Assembly (NCBI RefSeq): GCF_010500615.1
Contig: NZ_JAAGNX010000001.1
Location: 1,193,531-1,257,530, forward strand
Source: Oceanipulchritudo coccoides
Lineage (GTDB): Bacteria > Verrucomicrobiota > Verrucomicrobiia > Opitutales > Oceanipulchritudinaceae
Reading direction: 5' to 3'
DNA length: 64,000 nt
Positions within the stretch are counted from its first letter, which is position 1; every line of letters starts with the position of its first letter. A model generated the notes under the pieces. It made no database searches, had not been told where the DNA came from, and was given only the letters and a program-made list of their open reading frames with translations. Below are positions 4,518 to 31,216 of this stretch, piece by piece. The translations under genes and the position numbers were made by a program.

Positions 4518-5336
4518 ATGAATAACATAATGAAATCCCTCGCCAATCCTCTCCTTGTTTTGGTTTTTATCGCGCCGATGGCCTTCTCGCAAGTTACCCT
4601 CAACTTGAATACTTATGTGCAGACAGGTGCCCGGGAAGCCACTTTATCTGGGGCCACAACCTCCGGAGCGTCGCTTCTATACCTGGACAATTCAGTCTCC
4701 GGCCGTAATGACACCGCCTTGGTAGCGCCGCTCAACAGTGGTAGCCTGACATCCTTCACCCAGGTTGGCGACACGATGACCTACAGTTTCAGGCTGAGCG
4801 GTATCACCGCAACGAACAATAACACCACGCCACTCTACCGGGTGGGCTTTGACTTCGGCAGCACGGCGGCCTTGCGCTACGAGACCAGCACAGGTACTCA
4901 GGATCAATTGAGATTTGGCTCTAATACCGACGGAAATCCGTTTGCTTCAGGAACCACAACTGACTTTACCACTGACAACTGGACAAGCTTTGCTTTGCAG
5001 AGTTTGCGTTTCGATGACGGCAATGAAATTGATGCGACGGTCTCGTTGGAGCTCGTAGGAACCGGAAGCTATGAGATGACTGTCACCTACGTCAACCCAG
5101 CCGATTCAAACATAACGACGTCCCTTAGCCACACCTTTACCGGTGTGAACGGCAATCAGGTGGTGAGCGTCTTCCACGCGACGAACAGTTCGGGCATGGT
5201 GGACGGCGACGCCTACACAATCAGCAACGCCTCCCTGGAATTCACCGCGGTTCCCGAGCCATCGACCTACGCCCTGTTGAGCGGCATGCTGGCACTAGGG
5301 GCAATCCTCATGCGCCGCCGCTTCCATCGCGGGTAA
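4518..5336 (+). CDS. PEP-CTERM protein, first of three paralogues
   Basis: A 272-residue secreted protein. It has a signal peptide (MKSLANPLLVLVFIAPMAFS, from the second ATG at 4530 or the first at 4518). A beta-rich domain at about 25-243 follows, and then a classical PEP-CTERM tail: VPEPSTYALLSGMLALG and a final Arg cluster RRRFHRG. PEP-CTERM tails are recognised by exosortase, cleaved and transferred to the cell surface. No exosortase gene is in this window. The beta domain recurs nearly intact in the next two genes. Its function is unknown; the fold may be a lectin-like beta sandwich, but that is a guess. Confidence 0.85.
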   Translation: MNNIMKSLANPLLVLVFIAPMAFSQVTLNLNTYVQTGAREATLSGATTSGASLLYLDNSVSGRNDTALVAPLNSGSLTSFTQVGDTMTYSFRLSGITATNNNTTPLYRVGFDFGSTAALRYETSTGTQDQLRFGSNTDGNPFASGTTTDFTTDNWTSFALQSLRFDDGNEIDATVSLELVGTGSYEMTVTYVNPADSNITTSLSHTFTGVNGNQVVSVFHATNSSGMVDGDAYTISNASLEFTAVPEPSTYALLSGMLALGAILMRRRFHRG

Positions 5337-5370
5337 ACCCTAACCAGGCTGATCTAGTCAAAAAAAACCA

Positions 5371-6372
5371 ATGAAAAAACGAGCAAAAACATTCAAAAGT
5401 TATGCCGCCCTTGCGGCTTTTATCGCGCCCCTGGCCGTTTCGGCAACCATCCTCGACATCAATACCTTCGTGGTGATGGGGGCAAGGGAAGCCACTTTAT
5501 CAGGTGCCACAACCTCTGGAGCGTCGCTTCTTTACCTGGATAATTCGGTTTCCGGTCGGAACGACACCGGCATGGCTGCTGTGATCAACAGCGGTAACCG
5601 GCCCCCTTTCACCCAGTTGGGCGATAAGATGACCTACAGCTTCAATTTGAGCGGCATCACGGCCCAGAACAATCAGTTCACGCCGGTCTTCCGGGTGGGT
5701 TTCGACTTCGGGGACACGGCGACCCTGCGTTACGCCACCAGCACCGGTACGGGTCCCCGATTGGAGTTTGGCTCCAACACAAACGGGAATCCGTTTTCAA
5801 GCGGAACCGTCCATATCACTTATGAAGATTGGGTAAGCCGGAGTCCGGAGGATTACATCAGCCTCCGCTTTGATGATGGAAACAATATCGACGCAACGGT
5901 TACCCTTGAGTTGGTCGCCTTCAACGGTTCCAATTATGATTATCAGATGTCGGTGACTTACCAGGACGCGACCTTTCCATCGATCACCAACACGAAGACC
6001 TACACATTTACGAACGTGAACGGCAATCAGGTGTTGAGTCTCTTCCACCTGACCAATAGTTCCGGCATGATCGCCGGCGACGCCTACACGATCAGCAACG
6101 CCTCTCTGGATTTCACTGCTGCTGGCACAACGCTGCCGACGCCGGAGATCCAAATCGCCATTGTGGGGAGCGATGTCCAGGTCAGTGTGGATGCGTCCGC
6201 CTCGAGCGTAAATTACCAGTTGCTCAAGTCCACAAGCGACCTCACCTCCGGTTCATTCGGAGCAGTCGGCTCGCCTCAGGCGGGCAACGACGGCACGCTT
6301 GTATTGACGGATACCGGCGGCCTGCCAGGAACCGGCAACAAGGCGTTCTACAAGGTCGAATCCTCCAATTGA
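5371..6372 (+). CDS. secreted paralogue 2 with short C-terminal domain
   Basis: A 333-residue protein starting 34 bases after the previous stop. A signal peptide (YAALAAFIAPLAVSATI) precedes the same domain as its neighbour: GAREATLSGATTSGASLLYL is identical in both, and RVGFDFG, RFDDGN and GDAYTISNASL recur. The PEP-CTERM tail is absent. Instead residues about 255-333 form a different C-terminal module containing NYQLLKSTSDLTSG and ending FYKVESSN. Tails with an S-T-S-D-L ... F-Y-(K/R)-V pattern are frequent on secreted Verrucomicrobial proteins, and a related pattern closes the next gene. Function unknown. Confidence 0.75.
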   Translation: MKKRAKTFKSYAALAAFIAPLAVSATILDINTFVVMGAREATLSGATTSGASLLYLDNSVSGRNDTGMAAVINSGNRPPFTQLGDKMTYSFNLSGITAQNNQFTPVFRVGFDFGDTATLRYATSTGTGPRLEFGSNTNGNPFSSGTVHITYEDWVSRSPEDYISLRFDDGNNIDATVTLELVAFNGSNYDYQMSVTYQDATFPSITNTKTYTFTNVNGNQVLSLFHLTNSSGMIAGDAYTISNASLDFTAAGTTLPTPEIQIAIVGSDVQVSVDASASSVNYQLLKSTSDLTSGSFGAVGSPQAGNDGTLVLTDTGGLPGTGNKAFYKVESSN

Positions 6373-6450
6373 CGCTTTCTCGAGAACGGGTTGCCCCGAC
6401 TGGTTCCGCCACGCTTTCCACCTGGGGTTAAAAATAGGTATTCAAGGGAC

Positions 6451-6475
6451 GGCCCCGCAAGGGGCCTTTCCTTTT
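6451..6475 (+). terminator. intrinsic terminator between paralogues 2 and 3
   Basis: GGCCCC-GCAA-GGGGCC is followed by TTTCCTTTT. A perfect 6-bp GC stem with a GNRA-type loop and a T-rich tail separates the second and third paralogue, so the third probably has its own promoter in the next 50 bases. Confidence 0.7.
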
Positions 6476-6525
6476 CAACCATCCCTTAAAGTATTGCCGC
6501 CTAAAACCTTCTGTCATAATCCCAA

Positions 6526-9500
6526 ATGAAACAATTCCGAACAATCGTGCTCCTTTCATCCGTGTTGCTTCCGCTGGCTGCCATGTCCGCACCAACTGCC
6601 CTCGATCTGAATACCTTTGGGGGAACGGGAGCGGGTGCCTATACCCTATCCGGAGCCTCCACCTCGGGAGCCTCCATTGCATACGATACCAGTAACGGGG
6701 CCAACGATATAGGAATGGTGACCTCGATCAATAGCGGCAGCCTGAGCCCCTTCACTCAAGTGGGCGACAGCATGATCTACAGCTTCCATCTGGGCGGCAT
6801 CGCGGCAACGAACAATCAGTTCACGCCGATTTTCCGCGTGGGATTCGACTTCGGGGCCACGGCGGCCCTGCGTTATGCCACAAGCACCGGGACCGGGCCG
6901 CGATTGGAGTTTGGTTCCAATACAAACGGGAATCCGTTTACAAGCGGTACCGTGCATGTGACGCATGAGGATTGGTGCCCCTTTGATCTTCAAGACATCC
7001 GGTTTGATGAGGGACACGAAATCGACGTGGCTGTTTCCCTTGAGCTCGTGGCGATCAACGACAGTTTGCATGACTACCAGATGACGGTCACCTATGTCAG
7101 CACCCTCAACCCGTCCGACACGAACTCGAAGACTTACACCTTCACCGGAGTGAACGGTAATCAAGTGGTCAGTCTCTTCCATGTCACGAACAGCGCGGGC
7201 ATGGTCGCCGGCGACGCCTACACCGTCAGTAATGCATCCCTTGTTTTTTCCGGACCGACAGTCCTTGATCAAGTCCGGGCATCGGTTGATGCCCTGCCCG
7301 AATCCACCCCGGAGGAAAGGGTTAAAAAGGCGGTCCTTCAGGTGGAGGTTGAGCGCGCAGCCAACGCAGAGGCTGTTTCCCTGTTGGAAGAAAGCGATGC
7401 GCTCCTTGTGGAGGTGCAACAAGCCCTTTCCCGGAACGCACCAGAATTCACAGCGACCAATCCCGGCGCGCCTGTCAACCTTCCCATTCTTCGACCGCTC
7501 ATCACACCGTATGTGGATAATCCTTACCTGCAAAAGCTTGAGCAGGAAGCCACTGATGGCATTGCCACCGATGATGTGCTCTGGCCGAGGGCCCTGCACT
7601 ATAATCAGGTTATCAATGACGTGCAGGGAAACTACGGGGCCAGGTCGGCATTCAAACTCATGTCGGAATACTTGTGGTTGTTTGGCCACGATGAGAGCCC
7701 CATGAAGTTTGATCCTGAATTGTTAAAGCGTGTTTTGCGTCGAGCCCACGCTTACATGGATTCCCTGGAGCTCACCCCAAGCGTGAATGCCGACCCCGCA
7801 CCGAACTGGTACGATCAATTTTCTGTCTATGTCGCATTTCCCGCCCTCTACGAGCTCCGCATGCTCTATCCCGGCTTGCTAATGCCCGCGCAACTCAGCC
7901 GGTGGGATAGCATTATGAACGCTGTCGCATTGGATATGGAGAGTTGGTACTTCATGGTACTTGGTTACAGCCCATGGAACATCAACATCGAGACCGGACG
8001 GCTTGTGGGTGTGATGGTAGCCGGGCTATGGACAGGTAACCAACAGCTTGTGGACCGTTCCTTTAATCATATTGATGCCACGACGGCGCGGTTGTTTCCG
8101 GATGGAGCCGTCCCTTACCACGGCGTGGGCCAGGCATCCTCCAACTACCATGACATATTGCTCGAGGAGTGGCTTATCCTCTACGAACTAACAGGCTACC
8201 AGCCGATCATGGATGCGATGGTCAATACCCAATGGAGGGGACCCGCCATGGGGCGGACCGAAGAATTCTGGACTTCTCCTTTCTACAAAACCTATCGCTG
8301 GAACTATCAAAAAGGAACCGAGGCTGGAAGCGAGCTGGTCGCCACCATGAGTCGGAATCCATATGTTCGCTGGCTCTTGGACCGGGATATGTTTCCCGAC
8401 TACTTTACACCCGGCAGTCAACTGGGGCACCGCTATCAGGCTCCATGGTATGACGCCACGGTTATCGCCAATCCCTTGCCCGACAATTACACGATTGCGG
8501 ATCGCAATACCGGAGGGCCAAGGGGCTGGTATGGCAACTTCACCTATGCGGGCGCTTTCCGCCCGAACCCCAACTCGACCCGCTACGAAGGCCATGAAAC
8601 CCTCATGGGGGCCATGACTGTCGATGATGATGGCCGCGTCAACTCCATCCTTGTCGATGTCACCCCGCGTATCTGGCAGACCCCTGATAACACAGTCGAA
8701 AATGGATATGACATAAGTGCATGGGCGGACCTGACGATTTACGAGGATCCGGCCACGACGATCAGCAGCAATTACAGCGTCTCGACCTCGATTCATGAAA
8801 TTACCCGCAAAAGAGCCGGTTCGGCTCGCACGGCCAACGTCTCCGGATGGACCGGCCGTCAGGTATGGATCGGATTGCCCGACCGGATTGTGGGATTGGT
8901 CTCGACCGTGCCAACGGCTGGGGAAGCGGCCGCCTATGCTATAAACGGTGTCTTGCGTTTAATTTCGGGAGGCACTGCCGGGGCGGAGACGACCAAAGTA
9001 CTCGAGGAAATCATCCCCGGAACGCATTACCGGTATGGGCAATTGGATGTTTTCGTCCATGACAGCACCTACACCAGCCTCACGGGACTTGAAGTGGAAT
9101 ATCGTGTACCGACCTACCCAGCAACGGAACTCACCTTCAGCAACCGAGCCTCCGAGCCCTTGCCCGCCGGCACCCAAACCACCTTCCCCTCCGCAACCGA
9201 GTTCCGGTTTATTGTCGAGGTTCGGCCTGCATGGACCACAACCGACTTGACGGCCGTTAACGTGCTTGGTGATCAGGATCTGATCGGCTTGGACCTTGTC
9301 AGCAGTGAACTGTCTCTTCAGGTTTGGCTGAATGCAGCCGATACGGGTCGGAGTGTTATGCTCCAAAGAGGAAATCTACCTGCAGGCACGGATTCCATTG
9401 TTCTTTCTAACGGTGTTCTCGGAAGGGTCCCCTTCGATCCGAGTGTTCCGGTTTCCGTTAATCTGGTGCCCGGGCAGCACGCGGTGCTTGTGGTCAGCTC

Positions 9501-9753
9501 TGATCCGGAAGATCATCAGGTCGGCTGGGAATCCTTTACCCAACTGATTGAAACCCCGCTCATTGAATTCACCCGGCATGTTGACGGAATGGAAATTGAA
9601 TACCGTGGAACCCTTCAGGAAAGCAGTGACCTCAATTCATGGACGGATATGAATCCACAGCCGGCCAGCCCTTGGACGTTTATCTTTGAACCCGGCGGGA
9701 AGCGCTTCTTTCGTTCTCGAGGGTATCCTCAGTCCCAAAGCACTATCGATTGA
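6526..9753 (+). CDS. paralogue 3: shared N-terminal domain fused to a large toroid-like enzyme
   Basis: A 1075-residue secreted protein (signal peptide TIVLLSSVLLPLAAMSA). Residues 26-243 repeat the domain of the two preceding genes (RVGFDFG, RLEFGSNTNGNPF, GDAYTVSNASL). Residues about 250-680 are helix-rich, with YSPWNINIETGRLVG, DGAVPYHGVGQASSNYHD and many aromatic residues. That suits an (alpha/alpha) toroid followed by a beta-sandwich, the layout of many polysaccharide lyases. The Asn/His/Tyr-rich segments would be the active site. I cannot name the family. The C-terminus has LQESSDLNSWTDMNP ... FFRSR, a tail type common in secreted proteins of this phylum. It probably acts on an extracellular glycan. 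Confidence 0.65.
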   Translation: MKQFRTIVLLSSVLLPLAAMSAPTALDLNTFGGTGAGAYTLSGASTSGASIAYDTSNGANDIGMVTSINSGSLSPFTQVGDSMIYSFHLGGIAATNNQFTPIFRVGFDFGATAALRYATSTGTGPRLEFGSNTNGNPFTSGTVHVTHEDWCPFDLQDIRFDEGHEIDVAVSLELVAINDSLHDYQMTVTYVSTLNPSDTNSKTYTFTGVNGNQVVSLFHVTNSAGMVAGDAYTVSNASLVFSGPTVLDQVRASVDALPESTPEERVKKAVLQVEVERAANAEAVSLLEESDALLVEVQQALSRNAPEFTATNPGAPVNLPILRPLITPYVDNPYLQKLEQEATDGIATDDVLWPRALHYNQVINDVQGNYGARSAFKLMSEYLWLFGHDESPMKFDPELLKRVLRRAHAYMDSLELTPSVNADPAPNWYDQFSVYVAFPALYELRMLYPGLLMPAQLSRWDSIMNAVALDMESWYFMVLGYSPWNINIETGRLVGVMVAGLWTGNQQLVDRSFNHIDATTARLFPDGAVPYHGVGQASSNYHDILLEEWLILYELTGYQPIMDAMVNTQWRGPAMGRTEEFWTSPFYKTYRWNYQKGTEAGSELVATMSRNPYVRWLLDRDMFPDYFTPGSQLGHRYQAPWYDATVIANPLPDNYTIADRNTGGPRGWYGNFTYAGAFRPNPNSTRYEGHETLMGAMTVDDDGRVNSILVDVTPRIWQTPDNTVENGYDISAWADLTIYEDPATTISSNYSVSTSIHEITRKRAGSARTANVSGWTGRQVWIGLPDRIVGLVSTVPTAGEAAAYAINGVLRLISGGTAGAETTKVLEEIIPGTHYRYGQLDVFVHDSTYTSLTGLEVEYRVPTYPATELTFSNRASEPLPAGTQTTFPSATEFRFIVEVRPAWTTTDLTAVNVLGDQDLIGLDLVSSELSLQVWLNAADTGRSVMLQRGNLPAGTDSIVLSNGVLGRVPFDPSVPVSVNLVPGQHAVLVVSSDPEDHQVGWESFTQLIETPLIEFTRHVDGMEIEYRGTLQESSDLNSWTDMNPQPASPWTFIFEPGGKRFFRSRGYPQSQSTID

Positions 9754-9867: not shown

Positions 9868-12800
9868 ATGGACCGGGATGACAGTCAGTCAGAACGGTAT
9901 GCGATCAAACCCCCAAAAGACTCCGCTATCATGCATGATCCTCAAAGCAACTTTTCCGCAATAATATCAAGACCCATCTGGAGTCGTTTGGCCGCCATTG
10001 CCAGATCTGTCGGAATTCTAGCAGCGTTTAATTTCTTTTCATTAAGTGGTTTCGCTACAGGAGAACACTTCAATTTCTCTTATCTGTCGGAAGGCCCAAT
10101 TCAACAAGAATTCTACGTTTCTCCGGATGGACGGGATTCTGACTCGGGAACCCTGGATAATCCACTGCAGACTTTACAGGCAGCCCGTGATAAAGCTTCT
10201 GCGTATCTCGCCAGCAACCTATCCTCAGATGGGGCTGTTGTCGTTTACCTGCGTGAAGGAGTATATCAACAAGACAGCACGATCGTATTCAGGCCACAGC
10301 ACAGCGGCCGAGCAAACAGTCCTGTCATTTATGCCGCCTTTGCTGACGAGACTGTTGTCATTAGCGGGGGTAAAGCGATCACCGGGATATGGGAACCCGT
10401 GGAAGGTAAACCCTTCTATTCGATAACTATTCCCGAAGCTGCCTCGGGCAACTGGAAGTTCAATAGTTTGTATGTAAACGGTGAAAGCCGAACACGGGCA
10501 CGCACACCCAATTATGACGAGAAGATGCTGAGAGCGAACGGGCGGGTTCCCCGCTGGAGCCAAGAGCTTTCGCTCCGCTTCTGGGAGGGCGACATTGACC
10601 CGACATGGAGCGATTTGAGTAATATCGATATTGTCATTCCTATGACCTGGACCCCAGTCCATCACCAGATTGATGTCATTGATTTCGATCGTCGAGGTGT
10701 TGAGTTGGCCAGCGTGGGTGGCCAGCACCAGCTTTATGGTGATGACTATTTCCGCTACTACCTTTCCAATGTCTATGAAGGTTTGGATGTCCCCGGTGAA
10801 TGGTATTTGAACCCTCATACAGGTGTTCTCTACTATTACCCTTATTCCGGCGAGAATCTGGGTGAGGTCTCCGTGGTTGCCCCAGTGGTTTCCTCCCAGC
10901 TAATGTCATTTGAAGGCAATGCGGTTGAGGATGAGACGATTTCCTACATTGAGTTCAAAGGACTGGAATTCCGGCATACCGATACCAACCGGGAAAAGTG
11001 GAACGGCGCATACCGGCAGGCACATGCTTTTCTGGATGCTGCAATCTACGCAGAAGGATTGACCCATTGTATCTTCAATGACTGTACATTTGAGAACCTC
11101 GGTGAGTATGCAATTGAACTGGAAGTCGGCAGTCAGGATAATGTCATTTTCCAATGCCTGTTCCGGGATCTCGGTGGTGGCGCTCTTCAAGCGGGTATTT
11201 TCTCCCTTCAGGATATCCAAAGAGCACGAAACTCGGTGGGGTTCGTCTATGAAGATGTGGATACGCACCCGAGAACCGATGTGCTGCGTAACAGGATTGA
11301 AAACTGTATCATAAACAAAATTGGAACCTATTGGACAGGTGTCTATGCCATCAATATCCGCTTCGCTTCGTACACACAAGTCCTTCACAACGAAATCTTT
11401 GATACTCACTACAGTGGAGTTGCGATTGACGCCCGCTGGACGAATTTCTCAGGTGAGAATTACTGCCACGGCAATGAACTCGCCTACAACCATGTCCATC
11501 ATATCGGACGCGGCCTTCACAGTGATGGCGGGGCTTTTTACCAGCATGGTCCAACTGATAATCACTATCACCATAATGTAGTTCATGATCTTACGAAGTT
11601 TCCGCATAGAAATGAGATGAAGGGAATATTTTTAGATGCCCAATCACAGGGTGCCATCGCCGAAAAAAACCTCATCTATGACACTGAAGGTGCCGGGCTA
11701 ATCCAGAACTGGGGATTGGGAAATATTTTCCGCAACAACATTGTTTCCTTCACAGAGGGTGGAGCAAAGAGAGGGAAAGCGGATCCCAATGATGAGTCAG
11801 CTTTCAATCACCTCTATCTTTACAGCAATGTTTTTATATCAAACGATGGGGTAGGATTGGGACAGGCATGGCCACCAAGTCAAGGTGAGGACATCATACG
11901 GGACAACCTGTTTTATGACATTAACCAGGAGACCCTTACTTTCTGGGGTCTGTCCCTTGAAGACTGGCAGGCGCAAAGCGGCCTCGGTCAGGGCACTTTG
12001 ATCGCCGACCCGGGGGTCGCCGATCCATTGCAAAGGGACTTCACGATTTCCACCCAGAATGCGGCCTTGCAGCAAATCGGATTTCAACCCTTCTCGGGCG
12101 AAGTGGAAAATGCAGGCGTCTACGGTGCGGAGAGCTGGACCGGCTTGCCCCAACAATTGGCCGCGAACATTCGGGGCAAAGTCCCGCACTGGACTGAATC
12201 TGAGATACGTGCCCTTGAAAACAGATCTGATCCGGATGTCATTCCTGAAGGGACCATCCATCCCGAGGCGGACGCATCTGTCCGGGGAGGTTCAGCTTCG
12301 GCTACTAATTTCGGAACACTAACTTCGCTTCAAGTTGCAGGAACCGACGGATCCAGCCTGACCCGACAATCCTACCTGCGCTTTGATTTGTCGTCCATCG
12401 TGCAGAGCTTTTCGAAGGCTACCTTGCGCCTCAAACTTTCATCGAATAGAAGCGAAGATGCACATAATGCCCACTTCGTCAGTGATGATTCCTGGGAGGA
12501 AACTGGGATTACCTGGGACAATAAGCCTGTTCTCGGCGAAGAGCTGGATTCCGACCTCATTCCTGAGAACGGGGAGTGGCTTGAATTGGATGTAACGGAA
12601 AAGTTGCGCGATGAGTTGACCGGAGACCAACTGTTCTCTGTTGCCGTGGTTTCAACCGGGGCCGGTGCCGCAAGCTATCGCTCCCGGGAAGAGGAAGCCC
12701 CTTACGTCCGTCCTCAACTGGTTATCAAGGCCAGCAACCCTGACGCCGTTCTGCTGGCACGCGATTGCGCGCCGGGTGAGTCCTGGGAGACGGCTGATGT

Positions 12801-14262
12801 CTGGAGTGATGGCACAGCAGCAGGACCGGGAAAGGATTACCTTGTCGACGGTTTCTATTCGGGCCCAGTCCTCCTGCGCACACCCAACGCGGCCGGTTCC
12901 GTTAAATTCCCCGGCGATTCCCTTGCCTTACTGGCCGATGCGGCCCTCTGGATAACTTCCGCCAGCGGAGGTGAGGTGACCATCGATAACCTGGTTATTG
13001 ACGGGGGAAAACTGGTTGCCTCGTATCCGGATTCCACTGTTCATTTGAGAGGTAACATAGCAATTGGCCCGGGCGGATTGATCGTTGAGGGAACGCCCGG
13101 TACACTGGCAATAGAGTCGGAGGTCAGCGGGGACGGCCCAATTACACAACAGGGACCGGACCGGGACACCAGTTTTAATGCTGGCACTTGGGGTGGAGAC
13201 TTGAGCATTGAGGGAGGCGTGTTGCGTTTTGGGTATGGGGTTGTATCGGGACAGGATCTCTCCATTGACAATGCTGTTTTCGACCTCAATGCAAAGGACC
13301 ATATCTTCGCATCATTGACGATCAACGGGGTGGTTTATGCGCCAGGTACCTACACCGCTGAACAGCTTGGGGAATCTGTTTCGGGGAGTGGTACCCTGAC
13401 GATACGGGATACGACCGTGCGCCTGCTGAAAAGCATGCCCTTCAGTGTTTCCTGGGATGCCGGATCCTACTGGAGCGACGGGAAGCCGGCCCATGCGGAT
13501 GGGGACTATATCGTTGACGGATCCGTCGCCTTTATGCTGCGAACGCCCCACAACATGGGCAACGCCGCCTTCCCGGGAAGATCCCTGACCCTGATGAACG
13601 GAGGCGGCATCTGGATCAAATCCAGCAGTTTCGGAGAGGTCACTTTTCCCAATCTGATCGTCGATGGAGGGAGAATTGTGTCCTCCTACGATGATTCCAC
13701 GGTTACCTTCAAGGGGTTTATCGATATCCTCCCCGGGGGAATGAGGTTCGAGGGAAATCCGGGACCCCTCATCGTCGAGGCCATGATTGCAGGATCAGGA
13801 CCCATCACCCAAATCGGCCCTGGGAGGGATACGACCTTAACCAATGGGTCCTGGGCTGGTGACCTTGATCTTCGTGAAGGTACCCTGCGCTTCGCGTTCG
13901 ATGTCCGGGCTGGCAAGCGCTTCAACTATGGAGGCGGTATCTTCGATTTGAATGGCCGCAACCACGTGTTTGAGTCGCTGATTATTAATGGATCCACATG
14001 GGAGAACGGGATTTATACTTCTGATCAGCTCGGAAGCGGATTCACCGGAAACGGCACCATCGAGGTGTATGATCCCTCAAATGCAAGGCTATGGGGCCCA
14101 TATACAGTGGATAGTAATGGCTATGTGGATACGCAATCCTGGCTGGGATGGCTCTATATCGATAACAGCGGGTGGGTTTACTCCGTTACACTCGGGAAAT
14201 GGATCTGGATGGCAGAGCCCGTCTCCATGGCAAATGGTGCATGGGCGTATTTTCCGCGCTGA
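9868..14262 (+). CDS. modular GH141-like beta-helix protein with DNRLRE domain, tandem repeats and surface tail
   Basis: A 1464-residue protein; ATG 9931 is an alternative start closer to the signal segment (SVGILAAFNFFSLSGFATG). Residues about 85-745 are a right-handed parallel beta-helix opening with FYVSPDGRDSDSGTLDNP, then VVYLREGVYQQDSTI, VISGGKAITGIW and SLYVNGESRTRARTPNY. This layout is typical of GH141 and related enzymes. About 797-956 form a DNRLRE (CBM96-like) domain with SYLRFDLSS and EETGITWDNKP. Residues about 970-1180 and 1190-1400 are two copies of one 210-residue beta repeat. The last 60 residues form a Trp/Tyr/Gly-rich domain (SWLGWLYIDNSGW), also found at the end of the secreted protein at 34.3 kb. 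Probable cell-surface glycan enzyme. Confidence 0.65.
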   Translation: MDRDDSQSERYAIKPPKDSAIMHDPQSNFSAIISRPIWSRLAAIARSVGILAAFNFFSLSGFATGEHFNFSYLSEGPIQQEFYVSPDGRDSDSGTLDNPLQTLQAARDKASAYLASNLSSDGAVVVYLREGVYQQDSTIVFRPQHSGRANSPVIYAAFADETVVISGGKAITGIWEPVEGKPFYSITIPEAASGNWKFNSLYVNGESRTRARTPNYDEKMLRANGRVPRWSQELSLRFWEGDIDPTWSDLSNIDIVIPMTWTPVHHQIDVIDFDRRGVELASVGGQHQLYGDDYFRYYLSNVYEGLDVPGEWYLNPHTGVLYYYPYSGENLGEVSVVAPVVSSQLMSFEGNAVEDETISYIEFKGLEFRHTDTNREKWNGAYRQAHAFLDAAIYAEGLTHCIFNDCTFENLGEYAIELEVGSQDNVIFQCLFRDLGGGALQAGIFSLQDIQRARNSVGFVYEDVDTHPRTDVLRNRIENCIINKIGTYWTGVYAINIRFASYTQVLHNEIFDTHYSGVAIDARWTNFSGENYCHGNELAYNHVHHIGRGLHSDGGAFYQHGPTDNHYHHNVVHDLTKFPHRNEMKGIFLDAQSQGAIAEKNLIYDTEGAGLIQNWGLGNIFRNNIVSFTEGGAKRGKADPNDESAFNHLYLYSNVFISNDGVGLGQAWPPSQGEDIIRDNLFYDINQETLTFWGLSLEDWQAQSGLGQGTLIADPGVADPLQRDFTISTQNAALQQIGFQPFSGEVENAGVYGAESWTGLPQQLAANIRGKVPHWTESEIRALENRSDPDVIPEGTIHPEADASVRGGSASATNFGTLTSLQVAGTDGSSLTRQSYLRFDLSSIVQSFSKATLRLKLSSNRSEDAHNAHFVSDDSWEETGITWDNKPVLGEELDSDLIPENGEWLELDVTEKLRDELTGDQLFSVAVVSTGAGAASYRSREEEAPYVRPQLVIKASNPDAVLLARDCAPGESWETADVWSDGTAAGPGKDYLVDGFYSGPVLLRTPNAAGSVKFPGDSLALLADAALWITSASGGEVTIDNLVIDGGKLVASYPDSTVHLRGNIAIGPGGLIVEGTPGTLAIESEVSGDGPITQQGPDRDTSFNAGTWGGDLSIEGGVLRFGYGVVSGQDLSIDNAVFDLNAKDHIFASLTINGVVYAPGTYTAEQLGESVSGSGTLTIRDTTVRLLKSMPFSVSWDAGSYWSDGKPAHADGDYIVDGSVAFMLRTPHNMGNAAFPGRSLTLMNGGGIWIKSSSFGEVTFPNLIVDGGRIVSSYDDSTVTFKGFIDILPGGMRFEGNPGPLIVEAMIAGSGPITQIGPGRDTTLTNGSWAGDLDLREGTLRFAFDVRAGKRFNYGGGIFDLNGRNHVFESLIINGSTWENGIYTSDQLGSGFTGNGTIEVYDPSNARLWGPYTVDSNGYVDTQSWLGWLYIDNSGWVYSVTLGKWIWMAEPVSMANGAWAYFPR

Positions 14263-14474: not shown

Positions 14475-15611
14475 TTAGAGTTCTGATGGATCAATGTTCT
14501 CAACCTTTCGAAAGACATCGTCCATGTGTCGCTTCGACGAAAAGCCGCAACTTCTTGCGACTTCGTGCAAGTCCAATTTCGGGTAATCGGCTATAAGCTG
14601 CCTGGCCTTTTGGATACGCAGTGATTGTATGTAATTTGCAGGGGTGGTCTTTAAGTGGTTTTTAAAGGCCGTTTCCAACCATCTTCTCGAACAGTTGGTC
14701 ACGGCGATGACATCCTCCATGGAAAAGAACTTGGACAGATTCGCTCGGATGAACTTGATGGCCTCGTTCAACTTGGGATTATCGACAAACGTGAAAGCTG
14801 TCGATTGCCGTGCGAAGATTTTGTGTCCTTGAATGATGACATCCTCAGGTTTTTTCGAACTCCGGTTAACGATGAGATCGTGAAGTGTTTTCATCGCGGT
14901 GTAGCCGTACTTTCTGTCACCATATTCAATGCTGCTTAGAGAGGGGGAGCGCGTCAGGCAGATAGCTGAAAAGTTGTTGATGCCGATGACAGGCAAGTCT
15001 TCCGGGATCGACCAGCCTCGCTCAATGCACAATTCGTTCAAGATGCCGTAAAGGGCATCTGTATCGAGCAGGATACCAACTGGCGCTGAGAGGCCGTCCA
15101 ACCAATCCCTGATCGATTCGAAAGCCTTTTCCTCGCCCTCCAGATCCTCGATTTTATCAACAAAAATATAATGAATTGGGTAACCTGTGTTTTTCAGGAA
15201 GCTTTGAAAACCAGCAAATTTCTGATCTGAATACCATCGGTTATTGATCCCAATGTAGCCAAATGCGGTAACACCGGTGGCGGCAAGGTGTTCGGCCGCC
15301 GATCTACCTACGCCAAAATGGTCTTTTAACACCCTTGTATGGCCTGTTTGTTCGAAGGCACCCGAGATATTGACGACAGGGCATTGCAGGGTATCCGCTA
15401 TTTCGATGCTGTGCGGGCTGTTCAGCGAGACGATAGCCCCATCTCCAGTCCATGAGGTCAATTGCTCCACGCCATGCAGGTCATTCGGACCGGTGTGTCG
15501 AAAAGTGAATAGGGGAAAATCCTGAGCATATTCAAGAATTCCTTTATACAGGCCCCTTACGGTCCCATGCTCATGAGGAAAGGCCAGGGCGATCCGGTAA
15601 ATTCTTTCCAT
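14475..15611 (-). CDS. XylR/AraC-type transcriptional regulator
   Basis: A 378-residue regulator. Residues 1-270 are a LacI-type periplasmic-binding-protein fold sensor (IALAFPHEHGTVRGLYKG, then HFGVGRSAAEHLAATG and VIGINNFSAICLTRSPSLSS). Residues about 285-378 are an AraC helix-turn-helix domain (FSMEDVIAVTNCSRRWLETAF and the second helix pair LDLHEVARSCGFSSKRHMDD). Such proteins sense a sugar directly and activate catabolic genes, as known for E. coli XylR. It sits downstream of the GH67-like gene on the same strand. It is the obvious candidate controller of the surrounding glycan genes and of the palindromes at 17.5 and 34.3 kb. Confidence 0.85.
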   Translation of the reverse strand: MERIYRIALAFPHEHGTVRGLYKGILEYAQDFPLFTFRHTGPNDLHGVEQLTSWTGDGAIVSLNSPHSIEIADTLQCPVVNISGAFEQTGHTRVLKDHFGVGRSAAEHLAATGVTAFGYIGINNRWYSDQKFAGFQSFLKNTGYPIHYIFVDKIEDLEGEEKAFESIRDWLDGLSAPVGILLDTDALYGILNELCIERGWSIPEDLPVIGINNFSAICLTRSPSLSSIEYGDRKYGYTAMKTLHDLIVNRSSKKPEDVIIQGHKIFARQSTAFTFVDNPKLNEAIKFIRANLSKFFSMEDVIAVTNCSRRWLETAFKNHLKTTPANYIQSLRIQKARQLIADYPKLDLHEVARSCGFSSKRHMDDVFRKVENIDPSEL

Positions 15612-15692: not shown

Positions 15693-17429
15693 CTATTTTA
15701 CCATGGTCCTGCATATTTTATTGTAAATATCCGAGATGGCTTCCCCGAGCCCTGGTGGAGGTGTGCTGCCAGGCCAATGCCATCCGTGCGACCGGTACAG
15801 TGTGGCACAGCAGGGATAATCGGCACTGAGTTGGCAATAATCGTTCCACTTGAGGTTGGTTTCCCGCAGGCAATTCTCCAACTGCTTGAGGGGGATTTGG
15901 CTTCCCTGACGCAGGCTGTAGTCCAAGTATAAGGCCTGCCAGGCGTGGGCAATGTAAGAAAACAGTCTCAATCCGTACTGGCAACTGGATTGAATCACTT
16001 TTTTCATATTATTATCATGCGTCAGGTCCAGATCGCATGAAATATCGACGATTTGCTTCCATGTGGTGACCGATCGCATCTTTTCCTGGATCGCTGTTTC
16101 ACCCAGATTGTGTTCGTAGAGGTAGGCGAAAATAGGTTCCAACAGGTCCCAGCCGCCGAGTACATCATCCCGCATCCATTGGTTTGTCGGGAACTTGTCA
16201 AACTCCGAACCAGGGCGAGTGTCCCATACGGCGCAGAATTTTCCTTTCAGGACCGCATCCAGTGAAAGAGTTGAGAGTCTGTACAATATATGCTGGTCAC
16301 CAATTTGCAAATTGAGTCCATCACGGGTTACCTCCTCGAACAGGGAGGATTCATTTTTGTGACTATTCTTTAGGAAGCTGGTTATGTAGCGGACATTCAG
16401 GTCGACCCAGAACTCATTGCTTTTATCGACGTAAGGTCCGTACCAACCACCTCCCCGGGACCAGTTGTAGACTCCGGCAAAGTGTTCGTCCTGAACAAAG
16501 CTTCGGAGGCACGGTTTCTGGTCCACCTCGGGAAAGCCATCGATAACCCCGGCACTGGAGAAATTCGGATAGGCTCCTTTTCCCTCGTATTCACGCTGGC
16601 ATTGTACTTCCACTATTTGCGGGTGTTTTCCGATCCCGAGGCAGGGATTCCACCTCGCATACCGGTGAAAGTCGATATGCGTGTGCTTGATGGAGAAAAT
16701 TAGATTTTCGTGTGGGGAAATACGATCGGTGACCTTGAGATAGAATTCGGGATTGCTGTGGAAGCGGTTGTTTTGGATGTCCCATGTCCGGTAAATCAGC
16801 ATGCGATTGTGCTTCTCGCAGACATGCTCACGGAGAAAGCGGATAAGCGTCACGAAACCATCGATTTCCTGCTCCGAGTAAGTTTCACCCTCGTATGTAA
16901 CAGCGCTGTTTCCTGCATGGAATGGCGTATCGAAGAGATAGTTTTCCCCGACCCGAACGATGAGGCCGTCGACCCCCGGGAACCTTTCGAACATTTCCTC
17001 AAATAGATGCTGATGGAGATCGAGAACCTTAGGACTACTGACCGAGATCTTGCCTGTTTTCGGATCGATGAGCTCTTCGTGAAAAGAATCAATGATGCGC
17101 TTCGGAAGGATAAAGAGGTCAATATGGTAATAAACACGTAATCCCGCCTCTTTAGCCTTTTCAATTTCTTTGGAAATTTGGGCTGTCATTTTATCCAGCC
17201 ACTCAATTTCCTCCTCTGAGGGAGCAATGGCTCCTTTTAAACCGTCAAACCGGATGATGGTATTGATGTGCTTGAGGCACTGACCATTGAAGCCCAACGA
17301 CTTGAGATGAAAAGGGTCCGTGTAGGCGGTTTCAAACGGTTTTTCTCCCGGATTGTGATGAACCATATCAATTATGAGGGGCTCTTTCATTTTGTCATAG
17401 CTCTCGGGAGGAGTATCTAAAGCTTCCAT
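15693..17429 (-). CDS. GH67-like alpha-glucuronidase-type TIM-barrel protein
   Basis: A 578-residue protein without a signal peptide, so probably cytoplasmic. The central region resembles GH67 alpha-glucuronidases: a GVDGLIVRVGE segment, NRMLIYRTWDIQNNRFH, IFSIKHTHIDFHRYARWNP, then PQIVEVQCQREYEGKG. In GH67 the corresponding E-x-Q-x-x-x-E-Y segment holds one of the water-activating carboxylates, and the Glu after DGL..RVG would be the acid. Similarity is partial, so it may form a distinct family. It would release glucuronic acid from oligosaccharides. It runs divergently from the fucosidase with a shared 235-base control region and precedes the regulator by 81 bases. Confidence 0.55.
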   Translation of the reverse strand: MEALDTPPESYDKMKEPLIIDMVHHNPGEKPFETAYTDPFHLKSLGFNGQCLKHINTIIRFDGLKGAIAPSEEEIEWLDKMTAQISKEIEKAKEAGLRVYYHIDLFILPKRIIDSFHEELIDPKTGKISVSSPKVLDLHQHLFEEMFERFPGVDGLIVRVGENYLFDTPFHAGNSAVTYEGETYSEQEIDGFVTLIRFLREHVCEKHNRMLIYRTWDIQNNRFHSNPEFYLKVTDRISPHENLIFSIKHTHIDFHRYARWNPCLGIGKHPQIVEVQCQREYEGKGAYPNFSSAGVIDGFPEVDQKPCLRSFVQDEHFAGVYNWSRGGGWYGPYVDKSNEFWVDLNVRYITSFLKNSHKNESSLFEEVTRDGLNLQIGDQHILYRLSTLSLDAVLKGKFCAVWDTRPGSEFDKFPTNQWMRDDVLGGWDLLEPIFAYLYEHNLGETAIQEKMRSVTTWKQIVDISCDLDLTHDNNMKKVIQSSCQYGLRLFSYIAHAWQALYLDYSLRQGSQIPLKQLENCLRETNLKWNDYCQLSADYPCCATLYRSHGWHWPGSTPPPGLGEAISDIYNKICRTMVK

Positions 17430-17664: not shown

Positions 17665-18993
17665 ATGAATGCCCGACCCCTTCTTCCCATAGCTTGTGCG
17701 CTATTACTGAATTCATCCATGCTTCTGGCGGAGGTGGAGAGAAGCTACGATCTCCGCAATACTCAAGCCCGCAACGAGTCGTTTATGGATTGGGGGATGG
17801 GTCTGTTTATTCACTGGAGCCTGGATGCTGAATTGGGAAGCGTTATCTCACACAGCATGGTCGGGGCCTCCGATGATTATCTACAGCGGTATGTCCACGA
17901 ATTACCCGGTTACTTTGATCCGCAGGAATATGACCCTGAAAACTGGGCAAAACTGGCAAAGCTGGCTGGTTTTAAATACATGGTCCTGACAGCCAAGCAC
18001 CACAGCGGATTTTGTCTTTGGCCCACCGCTACGACTGAATTCTCGATCAAGAACACTCCGTATGGGCGTGATATCGTTGGACCCTACATAGATGCCTGCC
18101 GAAAGTATGGATTAAAGGTGGGCCTCTACTTTTCCCCTGAAGATTTCTGGTTTCTCCTTAAACAGGATCAAGTAATCCGCCGCCGAGGAGCAGATTATCC
18201 CCATATAACGCATAACAATGAGCTTCTGGAGTATGCTAAATCCCAGATCAAGGAGTTGCTGACGGGTTATGGGCCTATCGATGTCATCTTCCTGGATGGG
18301 CAGAAAAATGATCCGGTGCGTGAGTATGTCCACGAGCTTCAACCCCATTGCATCGTATCGCGGGGAGAAATGGAAACCCCCGAGCAGCGCATTCCGGATG
18401 AGCCGATCCCAGGACCTTGGGAATCCTGTTTTACACTTGGCACCCAATGGCAGTTTAAGCCAACCAATGAGGATTATAAATCCGGAGGTGAGCTGATCCA
18501 GATGCTGATTGAAATCAGGGCAAAGGGTGGCAACCTTTTAATCAACACGGGGCCCGATCCTTCTGGTAAAATACCTTTTGAGCAGGAACGGCGTTTTCGG
18601 GAACTGGCCTTGTGGATGTTTGTCAACGGGGAAGCGATTCATGAAATTCGTCCATGTCCCGTAATCAGGGAGGGAGACATTTGGTTTACACGAAGTGCAG
18701 AGAATCCCGATACAGTCTACGCCTTCATCCCGCAAGGTGAAGACCTATGGGATCGTGGGGAGCGGAGGGAGTTCATCCTGAAGTCCCTTGTGGCCGACGA
18801 GTCCTCGTCAGTCTCCGTATTAGGCCAAAATGATCAGGTGGTGGAGTATGCCCCGGAAACTGATCCTCGATCACGCTTTGAGCAGACGCCCGAAGGATTG
18901 AAAGTCTCAGTCGTACGGGCCCAGCGGCTATACAACAATCATAGATGGCCCAACCCAATGGTCGTGAAACTTACGAATGTATTATTTAATTAG
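17665..18993 (+). CDS. alpha-L-fucosidase (GH29-like)
   Basis: A 442-residue enzyme with signal peptide (LLPIACALLLNSSMLLA) and the GH29 catalytic barrel. Motifs are WGMGLFIHWSLDAELGS, YDPENWAKLAKLAGFKYMV, LTAKHHSGFCLWPT and YGLKVGLYFSPEDFW. GPIDVIFLDGQ carries the Asp at the position of the nucleophile, and GGNLLINTGPDPSGKIP is also typical. GH29 enzymes remove terminal alpha-L-fucose with retention. It is the first gene of a plus-strand operon (fucosidase, beta-helix enzyme, symporter, sulfatase, dehydrogenase). Likely periplasmic. The acid/base residue could not be fixed by eye, and substrate linkage cannot be told. Confidence 0.85.
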   Translation: MNARPLLPIACALLLNSSMLLAEVERSYDLRNTQARNESFMDWGMGLFIHWSLDAELGSVISHSMVGASDDYLQRYVHELPGYFDPQEYDPENWAKLAKLAGFKYMVLTAKHHSGFCLWPTATTEFSIKNTPYGRDIVGPYIDACRKYGLKVGLYFSPEDFWFLLKQDQVIRRRGADYPHITHNNELLEYAKSQIKELLTGYGPIDVIFLDGQKNDPVREYVHELQPHCIVSRGEMETPEQRIPDEPIPGPWESCFTLGTQWQFKPTNEDYKSGGELIQMLIEIRAKGGNLLINTGPDPSGKIPFEQERRFRELALWMFVNGEAIHEIRPCPVIREGDIWFTRSAENPDTVYAFIPQGEDLWDRGERREFILKSLVADESSSVSVLGQNDQVVEYAPETDPRSRFEQTPEGLKVSVVRAQRLYNNHRWPNPMVVKLTNVLFN

Positions 18994-19006
18994 TCATGAT
19001 TCATTT

Positions 19007-21121
19007 ATGAAGAATAGCCTTATAATCGCTTTCCTGTGTTTGACTGGAGGATCAATGACATTGGCTCAACCCAATGCCACTATTTACGACATTTCAGGAA
19101 ATACCTATTTTGTCTCTGCGTGTGCTTCAAGCGATGGAGATGGCTCCCGTGAAAACCCGTTTGCGACGCTTGAGCAGGCCAGGGACCAAGCCAGGAAGGA
19201 TTTACTCAAAACGTTCACCCCACCGGAAGGAGCGGTAATCCAGTTGGAACCCGGTGTCTATTACCTTGAGGAAAGTTTTATCCTCGATCATCAGGATGCC
19301 TATCCCGCTTACAGCCAATTGACCATTCAGGGTTCAGACGATGGTGAGAGTATCCTTAACATGGGAAGAAAAGTCCCCATGGACGAGATTAAACCTGTGT
19401 TGGATGAAAGCATTCTGAAGCGTCTTCGTCCGGAAGCAAGGGATCACGTCAAGGTGATTGACCTGCTGGTATTGGGTATCGACCTGGAACCGTTGCCTGT
19501 TCTTTACAAGGATCTCGATGGGGGCCAGCCGGAAATTTTCTGGAATGATGAAAGGCTTCCTCTTTCGCGCTATCCGAATGAAGGCACCCTGACGATGGGA
19601 GAATTGATTTCCCCGGGAGTTTGGTGGGATAGTGAAAACCTCGGAGGCATCTTCAAATTCAAAGATGATCGTCACCTGGACTGGACAGAAGCTGTTGATG
19701 CCGGTCTCTGGCTGAACGGATATTGGAGGATTCCATGGCAATCGTGGAGCGTTCGGGTTGAATCGATCAATCCCGAAGAGAGGACGGTAACCCATGCTGC
19801 TCCCATTGCTGAGGGCAACAAGGAAAACTCAGCCTTTGCCGGTATTGGTTCGAAGTATTCGCGGCCAGAAGGTAGTCTGGAGGAACCTTATTTTGCATTT
19901 AATCTAGTTGAAGAGATCGATTTGCCCGGCGAGTGGAGTATCGATTACAGCACATCGCGGCTTCACATATGGCTGCCCGAAGGAGAGGGCGAACTCAGGA
20001 TCGGTCATGACACGGCGCCCCTTATTGAGCTCAAAGGCTGCTCTCAGGTGACGATTAGAAACCTTACTTTCACAGGCGCTCGGGAGAACGGTATCGAGAT
20101 GATCGGAGGTCTCGATAATGTGGTTGAAAATTGCACCTTCAAGAATCTTGGTGGATGGGGGGTAGTTGTTTCAGGTGGCTTCAGGAATGGCGTTAGAGAA
20201 AGTCATTTTACCCAATTGGGTAAGGGAGGTATTGAGCTCAGTGGTGGGGACCCGGTTAGTCTCGTCAAGTGTTACAATTTTGCTGTTGGGAATCGTATTC
20301 ATGATATTGGGCTCCTGCAAAAAACCTGGACTGGAGCCATTAAGCTTGGTCTGTCGCGCATGCATGGGGGCTCGATAGGCACTCGTCAGGCTGTCGGTGT
20401 TTCCCTAACCGACAATGAAATATATAACCTGCCACATATTGGAATTCTGGCTGGAGGGAATTTGAATGAAATCCGACGTAATATTATCTACGATATTGCA
20501 AAGGAGACACATGATGTCGGCTATATTTACACGCGGCATGACATGACAAGTCGTGGGAATGCTATTACAGATAATTTATTCTACGGTTCTCCACATGCGC
20601 ACGGATATCACGTCGATGACGGAGACAGTGGTGACACCATAGAACGCAACGTGATCATCGGGAGTAATGTCGGCGCACAAATCGGTGGAGGGCATTACAA
20701 TGTCGTCCGCAACAATTTCTTCATTGATTGCGAACGTGGAGCCCGCTTGGACGATCGCGGCATACGCCGGGACTACAGGCTTACCAACCCCATGAAAATG
20801 GCTGAGTTGATGATCACTGAGAGGGACCCCGAAGCTTGGTACGGATCGTTTCCTGAACTTATCGATCTATATGAAGACAAACCGGAATGGCCAAAGGGTA
20901 ACGAAATTACCGGTAACTTTCTCGTGCGTTGTCAGGAAAATGCGATCTACGAAATAAAGGAAAATGGTCTTCTGGAAGTAATCGAGGGCCGAAACAAAGT
21001 CGAAAAAAACCAGATCATAAGTGCTGATGAATTCCAGGCTCAACCTGCTGAAATGATCGAATTTTTCCGAGCCTACCTCTTGGAGCATAAGCGAATGCCT
21101 GATTATCTGCCCTTATTTTGA
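19007..21121 (+). CDS. secreted right-handed beta-helix protein, GH141-like
   Basis: A 704-residue protein from the ATG at 19007, chosen because it gives a clean signal peptide (MKNSLIIAFLCLTGGSMTLA) and avoids overlap with the fucosidase (18977 is possible). After YFVSACASSDGDGSRENPF come AVIQLEPGVYYLEESFIL, IFWNDERLPLSRYPNEG and a series of beta-helix rungs (VTIRNLTFTGARENGIEM, NVVENCTFKNLGGWG, HYNVVRNNFFIDCERGA). This is the same enzyme type as the 1464-residue protein but without accessory domains. GH141 members include alpha-L-fucosidases and xylanases; which applies here is unknown. Second gene of the operon, 13 bases after the fucosidase stop. Confidence 0.65.
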   Translation: MKNSLIIAFLCLTGGSMTLAQPNATIYDISGNTYFVSACASSDGDGSRENPFATLEQARDQARKDLLKTFTPPEGAVIQLEPGVYYLEESFILDHQDAYPAYSQLTIQGSDDGESILNMGRKVPMDEIKPVLDESILKRLRPEARDHVKVIDLLVLGIDLEPLPVLYKDLDGGQPEIFWNDERLPLSRYPNEGTLTMGELISPGVWWDSENLGGIFKFKDDRHLDWTEAVDAGLWLNGYWRIPWQSWSVRVESINPEERTVTHAAPIAEGNKENSAFAGIGSKYSRPEGSLEEPYFAFNLVEEIDLPGEWSIDYSTSRLHIWLPEGEGELRIGHDTAPLIELKGCSQVTIRNLTFTGARENGIEMIGGLDNVVENCTFKNLGGWGVVVSGGFRNGVRESHFTQLGKGGIELSGGDPVSLVKCYNFAVGNRIHDIGLLQKTWTGAIKLGLSRMHGGSIGTRQAVGVSLTDNEIYNLPHIGILAGGNLNEIRRNIIYDIAKETHDVGYIYTRHDMTSRGNAITDNLFYGSPHAHGYHVDDGDSGDTIERNVIIGSNVGAQIGGGHYNVVRNNFFIDCERGARLDDRGIRRDYRLTNPMKMAELMITERDPEAWYGSFPELIDLYEDKPEWPKGNEITGNFLVRCQENAIYEIKENGLLEVIEGRNKVEKNQIISADEFQAQPAEMIEFFRAYLLEHKRMPDYLPLF

Positions 21122-21138
21122 GCAACTTTTAACTACTT

Positions 21139-23580: not shown

Positions 23581-23662
23581 TTCCCTCAACGCTTTAAATC
23601 CGTCCACATACCGAAGAACCTTGAACAGCCCGGTTCCCCTCGAATTTGCAATTCCCTGTAAA

Positions 23663-25237: not shown

Positions 25238-26308
25238 ATGTTAAAGGCTGGCATACTCGGATTGGGCGAAGGCAGGAGTGCCTTGGCCGCAATAAGTTCC
25301 ATGGAGAACTGGCAAACGCGGTGGATCTGCGATCTTGACCAGCAATTGTTAGACGCTAGGAAAAGTGAATTTTCGATTTCCAGAACGACGACGGATTATG
25401 ACGAGATGCTGGCGGATCCAGAAGTCGATGTGATCTTCATCTACACGCCCGATCCTTTTCATGCGGACCACATATTGAAGGCATTTTCTGCTGGGAAGCA
25501 CGTCTTCTGCACTAAGCCGCTAGTCGATTCGCTTGAAAAAGGACAAGAACTCCTCAAAGCGCAAAAGGCTTCCGGTAAGGAACTGATTGTTGGTCACACA
25601 AGCCGGTTTTATCCGACGACAATGCAGCAGTACTCAGATTTCAAAGAGGGCCGTCTCGGGGAAATAGTTTCCTGTGAGACGCATTACAATAGTGATAAGC
25701 GATTGGGCTCCGCTGGGAAGCGTGGAAAAAAGGGAGAAGTCAACTGGCTCTATTCTGGATTGTGCCATCCGCTTGATCTCGTTTTCTGGTTCCTTGGTCC
25801 GATCAAATCGGTTTCGGCAATGTCGGTTCTGAGTCCGGCCGGCAAGCGATTGGGCTCTAGGGTTCCCGACAGCTTTCATGCTGTGTTGAAGGCCGAAACC
25901 GGTGCCTTGGGACAAGTGAGCGGAGTCTATGGGGCCGCGTCGACAGTTCAGGAGGCGCACCCGCAAAGCGGCTGTATCCTTCGTGGAGATAAAGGAAGCA
26001 GTGTTGCTTCTGCACCCCAATTTGAATACTCAACAAATCTTGATGGATTCCCTCAAACCACTAGCAGTTTTCCAGATGATGCTGGGGAGTATTTCCCCTG
26101 GGGCGGGTCAAAGTACCATGTGGGGGAGACCCGGAATCTTTTGGTTCACTTCGCCGAGTGCTTGCAGAGACAGCAAAGCCCGCGTCCAAACCTAAAGGAT
26201 GGTCTCAAAGTGGTTGCGATTTTGAAAGCGATTCAATTATCAATGGAATCGAATTGCCAGGTCGAGGTGTCCGATGTGCTTCGGAAGTACGGTTTAGTAG
26301 ATTTGTAA
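25238..26308 (+). CDS. Gfo/Idh/MocA family NAD(P)-dependent oxidoreductase
   Basis: A 356-residue cytoplasmic dehydrogenase. The N-terminal Rossmann fold is modified (AGILGLGEGRSALAAISSM), with IYTPDPFHADHILKAFSAGK and the family signature CTKPLVDS carrying the catalytic-region Lys. The C-terminal beta domain includes HTSRFYPTTMQQYSDFK and a WLYSGLCHPLDLVFW helix with the conserved His. Members oxidise sugars, inositols or uronic acid derivatives; the substrate here is unknown but probably comes from the glycan degraded by the locus. Last gene of the plus-strand operon, meeting the minus-strand operon tail to tail with a 31-base gap and no clear terminator. Confidence 0.88.
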   Translation: MLKAGILGLGEGRSALAAISSMENWQTRWICDLDQQLLDARKSEFSISRTTTDYDEMLADPEVDVIFIYTPDPFHADHILKAFSAGKHVFCTKPLVDSLEKGQELLKAQKASGKELIVGHTSRFYPTTMQQYSDFKEGRLGEIVSCETHYNSDKRLGSAGKRGKKGEVNWLYSGLCHPLDLVFWFLGPIKSVSAMSVLSPAGKRLGSRVPDSFHAVLKAETGALGQVSGVYGAASTVQEAHPQSGCILRGDKGSSVASAPQFEYSTNLDGFPQTTSSFPDDAGEYFPWGGSKYHVGETRNLLVHFAECLQRQQSPRPNLKDGLKVVAILKAIQLSMESNCQVEVSDVLRKYGLVDL

Positions 26309-31117: not shown

Positions 31118-31216
31118 GAATTGATAATTGAAATTTTGAAAAACGAATTTGGTTTTAACTATAGTTTGACGATGGATTCTCCATTGCGGGTTATCTGAAT
31201 ATGGGTGCACCCGGTT

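Follow-up and report, generated by a model that had tools for sequence, protein, structure and literature searches.

A domain with a predicted lectin-like fold shared by three neighbouring proteins of Oceanipulchritudo coccoides: a putative carbohydrate-binding module in three settings

Three neighbouring genes of Oceanipulchritudo coccoides (genome G000), in the 64,000-nt stretch of DNA analysed here (the window, to whose positions coordinates refer), encode one and the same domain in three different settings, which bears on how Verrucomicrobiota catch the sulfated, fucose-rich polysaccharides in which they specialise. The three open reading frames (ORFs) lie on the + strand, separated by 34 bp (genes 1 and 2) and 153 bp (genes 2 and 3), and each starts with a signal-like N-terminus followed by the domain: (i) protein 1 (4518–5336, 272 residues; domain copy 1 at 4596–5249, residues 27–244) ends in a PEP-CTERM sorting tail (5247–5333); (ii) protein 2 (5371–6372, 333 residues; copy 2 at 5449–6120, residues 27–250) ends in a short C-terminal module of 83 residues, the FYKVE tail (6121–6369); (iii) protein 3 (6526–9753, 1075 residues; copy 3 at 6598–7254, residues 25–243) continues into an enzyme body of ~760 residues (7255–9540), a putative polysaccharide lyase of an undescribed family, and a C-terminal module of ~54 residues (9568–9723). 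We consider it fairly probable that the domain represents a new family of carbohydrate-binding modules (CBMs) with a concanavalin A (ConA)-like fold, dedicated to one sulfated polysaccharide and presented in anchored, free and enzyme-borne form.

Alignment of the three copies bears out the common domain of ~220 residues proposed in the original prediction and contains the motifs quoted there. Amino acid identity is 67.7% (copies 1–2), 62.8% (1–3) and 68.5% (2–3), DNA identity is 65–71% across the pairs, and the local alignment scores (663–766) are far beyond chance (maximum of 85 in 200 shuffles per pair). The locus had also been read as a recent tandem duplication followed by shuffling of modules. 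Shuffling with different C-termini is supported; a recent duplication of the three genes is not supported, because synonymous divergence (dS) exceeds 1: the NG86 method gives dS values of 1.06, 1.88 and 1.15 for the three domain pairs, with nonsynonymous divergence (dN) of 0.24–0.29, and YN00 gives 1.37 and 1.28 for two of them. The local DNA-level identity is real, the best 20-codon window reaching 90% in two of the three pairs (1–2 and 2–3), a level attained by 29 and 26 of 2000 column permutations; the 82% of pair 1–3 was attained by 202 of 2000 and is not unusual. These values are at most suggestive of gene conversion as its source.

By sequence, the domain family is undescribed in the libraries searched: no convincing match was found in Pfam, NCBIfam, PHROGs or PDB sequences. 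Among the 14 members scanned against Pfam, the best score belonged to a kinesin DUF (E 0.0043) and no lectin family gave a convincing match (H_lectin appeared once, E 0.062), so that the reading of a hitherto undescribed domain stands. The genome of O. coccoides has no strong matches besides the three window copies, and an exact DNA pattern for one domain motif returned nothing there. A profile of these copies gave strong matches in 3 of 387 genomes of the phylum, namely G000, G055 and G374, the last being Pontiellaceae bacterium B12227, of another class than O. coccoides. Inspection of gene neighbourhoods and iteration of the profile enlarged the set to 14 domains, and the resulting 14-row profile matched strongly 3 of 177 genomes of the order (G000, G055 and G105, with four weak matches), the same three of 384 genomes of the class, and 1 of 288 genomes of the class of G374. 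In a wider contig search, the first scan found no relative and the second found one (Pontiellaceae bacterium B12227); none was found in plasmids and viral contigs. Altogether, the family comprises 16 domains in 15 proteins from four genomes, a sporadic distribution. This count leaves out weak matches in G425 (E 0.0065) and in G002, G003, G054 and G137 (E 0.004–0.008), as well as three matches of a longer profile in the O. coccoides genome (E 0.008–0.027) that cover only the end with the PEP-CTERM tail. Searched as a whole against 17 genomes of the bacterial family, protein 3 matched only G000, plus G007 by the C-terminal module alone.

The fold gives a first indication of function. AlphaFold2, supplied with protein 2's copy and six relatives, returned a nearly all-beta model (predicted local distance difference test, pLDDT, 84.4; predicted template modelling score, pTM, 0.86), in which the two-sheet jelly roll of ConA-like lectins and glucanases extends over the whole domain. 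At E ≤ 0.001, Foldseek listed 105 matches in the PDB, with an ulvan lyase (E 1.8e-6) and legume lectins coming first; in VIA-align, 633 of the 998 chains aligned scored Z ≥ 8, the best 50 having Z values of 12.1–13.8. With an ulvan lyase at the head of the list, the domain might itself be an enzyme of the jelly-roll type, either a lyase such as PL28 or a hydrolase such as GH16, and His200 (protein 2 domain numbering), present in all ten members of the core branch, would suit such a role. The 16-member alignment speaks otherwise: its invariant residues are G24, G100, G119, L153 and N203, and no position keeps Glu or His in at least 12 of the 16 members, which disfavours a conserved acid–base machinery across the family. 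The conserved catalytic acids of GH16-type glucanases are thus missing (no such Glu column), and PL28-type lyases give the best fold match, with His200 confined to the core branch and replaced by Ile or Val in all six deep-branch members. Moreover, 5 of the 15 proteins already have a separate enzyme body. We regard a catalytic domain as quite unlikely.

The architectures of the 15 proteins are more in line with binding. Six bear a PEP-CTERM motif (protein 1, one protein in G374, three in G055 and one in G105), two consist of the domain alone (one each in G374 and G055), two have only a C-terminal tail in addition (protein 2 and a 599-residue G374 protein with two domains), and five are enzyme fusions. 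Attachment of a discrete domain to putative carbohydrate-active enzymes, a hallmark of CBMs, is therefore observed five times, the activity of these enzymes being itself putative. Protein 3 and a 1424-residue G105 protein, the latter with the domain at its N-terminus, involve the enzyme family of protein 3, as do two G055 proteins (1151 and 1166 residues) where the domain lies C-terminal of the enzyme; a scan of one of these two revealed a Big_9 linker. In the fifth, a G055 protein of ~1290 residues, the domain is joined to an enzyme of another kind, which we take from its motif to resemble heparinase II/III; its first 1036 residues have no match in Pfam, NCBIfam or PDB. As to the anchored form, the sorting tail of protein 1 passes the curated cut-offs (PF07589, 22.8 vs 20.7 bits; TIGR02595, 24.4 vs 16 bits), confirming the earlier assignment, and combines a C-terminal PEP motif, a hydrophobic stretch and a basic end with a genome that encodes exosortases (three matches; all six genomes searched have one). 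A curated model is also passed by the G105 protein; of the other four motif carriers, two lack any NCBIfam match at E ≤ 0.01, and the remaining two have sub-threshold matches only.

Trees of the enzyme and of the domain suggest that these attachments did not arise once. The enzyme tree places protein 3 as sister to a domain-less G471 enzyme (support 100/100) inside an eight-member branch (97/97), and the domain-bearing G105 and G055 enzymes fall in another branch (100/99). As for the domain, its tree unites the three copies of the window in a single clade (95/96) and groups the enzyme-borne G105 copy with a G374 copy (96/92); the enzyme-borne G055 pair lies inside a deep second branch (100/99). 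From this scattered placement in both trees, we infer that the domain was joined to protein 3's enzyme family at least three times independently. Furthermore, both domain-bearing G055 enzymes have a domain-less sister, one of which carries a CBM6/35 in its C-terminal region (E 1.6e-17). Five further enzymes that we scanned carry F5/8C and CBM96 (G362), F5/8C (G471), Laminin_G_3 (G457), a sub-threshold match and none, respectively; known modules thus occupy the place of the domain in four of the six family members scanned. At the sequence level, no other argument for a CBM role is as strong as this interchange of modules on related enzymes.

The same trees bear on another possibility, namely that the domain is a docking module which pairs with itself or with a partner, so that anchored protein 1 would hold the enzyme, protein 3, on the cell. 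The window copies are indeed mutually closest (95/96), and anchored and enzyme-borne copies coexist in one locus; however, tandem duplication explains the closeness, the domain tree separates the enzyme-borne copy of G105 from its PEP-CTERM copy, and no dockerin or cohesin family was matched in the Pfam or NCBIfam scans. Docking is in our opinion unlikely. The original prediction had proposed a binding or docking module, and it is as a putative glycan-binding module that the domain emerges here, given its fold, its separate attachments to enzymes, the CBMs on related enzymes and its degradation context.

The enzyme body to which the domain is most often fused had been described as a large toroid enzyme. 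Its profile finds relatives in 14 of the 387 genomes of the phylum, and P333, S391, N487, G527, Y541, K588, D659, R666, G695, Q779 and G790 are invariant in all 21 aligned enzymes. Loci of the family are window 7255–9540, L036, L037, L039–L041, L062, L063, L099–L103, L106 and L107. Pfam gave nothing useful for 12 members (only Rpn9_C, E 0.096, in one) and no match to PL8 or heparinase-type families, neither enzyme-body profile convincingly matched a PDB chain, and a model built from only two sequences was useless (pLDDT 32.3). The toroid fold is thus plausible, yet unconfirmed. The Asn/Tyr/Arg pattern resembles that of polysaccharide lyases, and with its invariant Asn, Tyr, Lys and Arg the family is a candidate new polysaccharide lyase family. 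At L041 (11200–14826, Pontiellaceae bacterium B12227), the reading frame of a Gfo/Idh-type oxidoreductase runs on into the enzyme and has a signal-like stretch mid-way, which may reflect a true fusion, a misplaced start or a lost stop codon. The first ~35 residues of a domain-less G105 enzyme (27712–30078 of the joined loci L062–L064) are near-identical to those of a different neighbouring protein (18367–21768), which suggests a local rearrangement.

Domain and enzyme family also tend to occur together. In the order (177 genomes), strong domain and enzyme-body matches are found in the same three genomes (p 1.1e-6, kinship ignored), the enzyme-body matches coming from a single-sequence search in which three other genomes matched by the C-terminal module only. 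In the phylum, the three domain genomes are all among the 14 enzyme-family genomes (p 3.8e-5, kinship ignored).

The gene context is consistent with degradation of a polysaccharide: across the four genomes, the domain copies are found within or close to clusters that also contain sulfatases, fucosidases and the undescribed enzyme family. In the window, a polysaccharide-utilization-type cluster spans 4518 to about 35460. Downstream of protein 3, it encodes, on the + strand unless stated otherwise, a beta-helix enzyme with a CBM96 and a sub-threshold GH141 insertion domain (9868–14262; 61% identity over 716 residues to a Pontiellaceae cluster protein); an AraC-type regulator with a periplasmic-binding-protein-like domain in a XylR-like layout (14475–15611, − strand; by Pfam); a 578-residue protein with no Pfam family over the cut-off (15693–17429, − strand; 42%); a GH29 alpha-L-fucosidase (17665–18993; PF01120, E 2.7e-62; 73%); a second beta-helix protein (18977–21121; 64%); a sodium:solute symporter (21139–23580; 51%); a first sulfatase (23621–25183; by Pfam); a Gfo/Idh/MocA oxidoreductase (25238–26308; by Pfam); a second sulfatase (26340–27959, − strand; 68%); a 1084-residue protein, GDSL-like below the Pfam cut-off (27956–31210, − strand); and a TonB-dependent receptor (31528–34182, − strand; by Pfam). 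All these identities are to the Pontiellaceae cluster, for which the domain proteins reach up to 44%; they were obtained by comparing 19 proteins of the window with ORFs of the collected loci rather than of whole genomes. Such high identity between classes suggests that the cluster may have moved horizontally. Pfam scans of 16 proteins of the window revealed no SusD family, despite the TonB receptor.

This context also bears on the idea that the domain belongs to a matrix protein that binds the cell's own exopolysaccharide and lies in a degradation cluster through shared regulation only. Such a role has been proposed for PEP-CTERM proteins at large, PEP-CTERM/EpsH having been tied to exopolysaccharide loci by Haft et al. 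(PMC1569441); but the domain genes sit among sulfatases, fucosidases and transporters, and a third of the domain proteins (5 of 15) are enzyme fusions, so that we hold this explanation to be very unlikely. A sulfated polysaccharide that contains fucose is the likely substrate, and it would include uronic acid as well if protein 3 is a lyase. Two Pontiella species grow on fucoidan (PMC7356697), and endo-fucanases are found in GH141 (PMC12786026).

Under our preferred reading, proteins 1–3 would bind one and the same sulfated, fucose-containing polysaccharide. Protein 1 would display the binding module at the surface by way of PEP-CTERM/exosortase sorting, protein 2 would present it free or attached by another tail, and protein 3 would join it to an enzyme that depolymerises the glycan, probably as a polysaccharide lyase. 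The anchored form would keep the polymer at the cell and the fused form would keep the enzyme on the polymer, while the neighbouring sulfatases, GH29 fucosidase, beta-helix enzymes and transporters would complete the degradation.

Several observations weigh against this reading. The ConA-like jelly roll is common, occurring also in enzymes and in proteins that do not bind sugars, so the fold alone is no proof of sugar binding; the closest Foldseek match is a lyase, and the TM-scores are modest (0.4–0.55). F5/8C and Laminin_G_3 modules are not always sugar binders. The co-occurrence p-values disregard kinship, 11 of the 14 enzyme-bearing genomes in the phylum lack the domain, and the enzyme profile adds enzyme genomes lacking it, including G048 of the same order. 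The lyase activity and toroid fold of the enzyme body are putative and unconfirmed. Finally, a third Pontiella species of the same family group, P. agarivorans, does not grow on fucoidan (PMC10880615), which makes the ligand uncertain.

Ordinary as the fold is, the triple presentation of this so far undescribed sequence family is unusual. More broadly, and as a tentative proposal that we would not press, Verrucomicrobiota might use exosortase-anchored, lectin-fold proteins as surface glycan receptors, with the same module in anchored, free and enzyme-borne form, apart from both Sus systems and cellulosomes. These would fill a receptor gap, because SusCD genes are reported to be missing from verrucomicrobial fucosidase clusters and from the Verrucomicrobiota genomes of that study (PMC8857213). 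In literature listings and abstract openings, we noticed no PEP-CTERM proteins described as glycan receptors of degradation clusters, which does not prove their absence. In 2006, PEP-CTERM proteins were reported to have Pfam family matches in less than 10% of cases (PMC1569441); a PEP-CTERM ectodomain that recurs on degradation-cluster enzymes offers a concrete, testable function for one such protein. The domain moreover points to an undescribed putative lyase family, and its three formats suggest how bacteria may retain algal-type sugars during digestion.

The C-termini deserve a separate comment, three different ones having been claimed. The PEP-CTERM tail and the enzyme body do differ, but the end of protein 3 resembles the FYKVE tail of protein 2. 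The latter, searched in 19 genomes, was matched in 8 at E ≤ 0.1 (four times in its own genome, itself included). The protein 3 tail has six matches in its own genome at E ≤ 0.1, four of them at E < 1e-4 (three being rows of the query alignment and one new). At G000:C2:199.8 kb, both queries score weakly on the same spot (E 0.0098 and 0.06), and the tail encoded at L116 (G000:C2:1026 kb) reads as intermediate between the two; on these weak scores, the tails of proteins 2 and 3 may represent one broad kind of C-terminal module. Besides, the proteins encoded at 9868–14262 and 34336–35460 end in a similar Trp-rich module of ~60 residues (39% identity over 59 residues), and the cluster therefore has at least one further kind of C-terminal module beyond the PEP-CTERM and FYKVE/FFRSR tails. 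Note that in the spacer of genes 2 and 3 (6451–6466), a 6-pair GC-rich hairpin is followed by a T-rich tail and could end transcription ahead of the enzyme gene; promoter- and terminator-like sites between 4300 and 10000 show no excess over shuffled sequence.

How does this system compare with known ones? Like legume lectins, the thrombospondin L-type domain, galectins and PL28 ulvan lyase, the domain has a predicted ConA-like fold over its whole length; unlike them in sequence, it shares only 5–14% identity in the best 50 of the 998 aligned chains, and its 14 scanned members lack a convincing Pfam lectin match. CBM6, CBM35 and CBM96 resemble it in being found on enzymes at either end and take its place on related enzymes, but the domain has no sequence match to them and its CBM role is putative. 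The order of conserved residues in the enzyme body (Asn ... DG..Y....Y) resembles, as we see it, that of PL8, which is a lead rather than a test; in contrast to the (alpha/alpha) toroid polysaccharide lyases (PL8 and similar), the enzyme body has no useful Pfam match in 12 members and no useful PDB profile match. Bacteroidota surface glycan-binding proteins of the SusD or SusE/F type, which carry a lipid anchor, offer a parallel in probable surface capture beside depolymerases and a TonB receptor, and a levan-binding one (chain 8aa2_E) is among the fold matches of the domain (Z 12.4); protein 1 differs by its exosortase-type tail, and SusD is missing from the scanned cluster proteins. Finally, protein 1 shares with the PEP-CTERM proteins of Haft et al. 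(PMC1569441) its tail and a genomic exosortase; whereas those were tied to exopolysaccharide production, the gene of protein 1 lies in a degradation cluster and its ectodomain is also found on enzymes.

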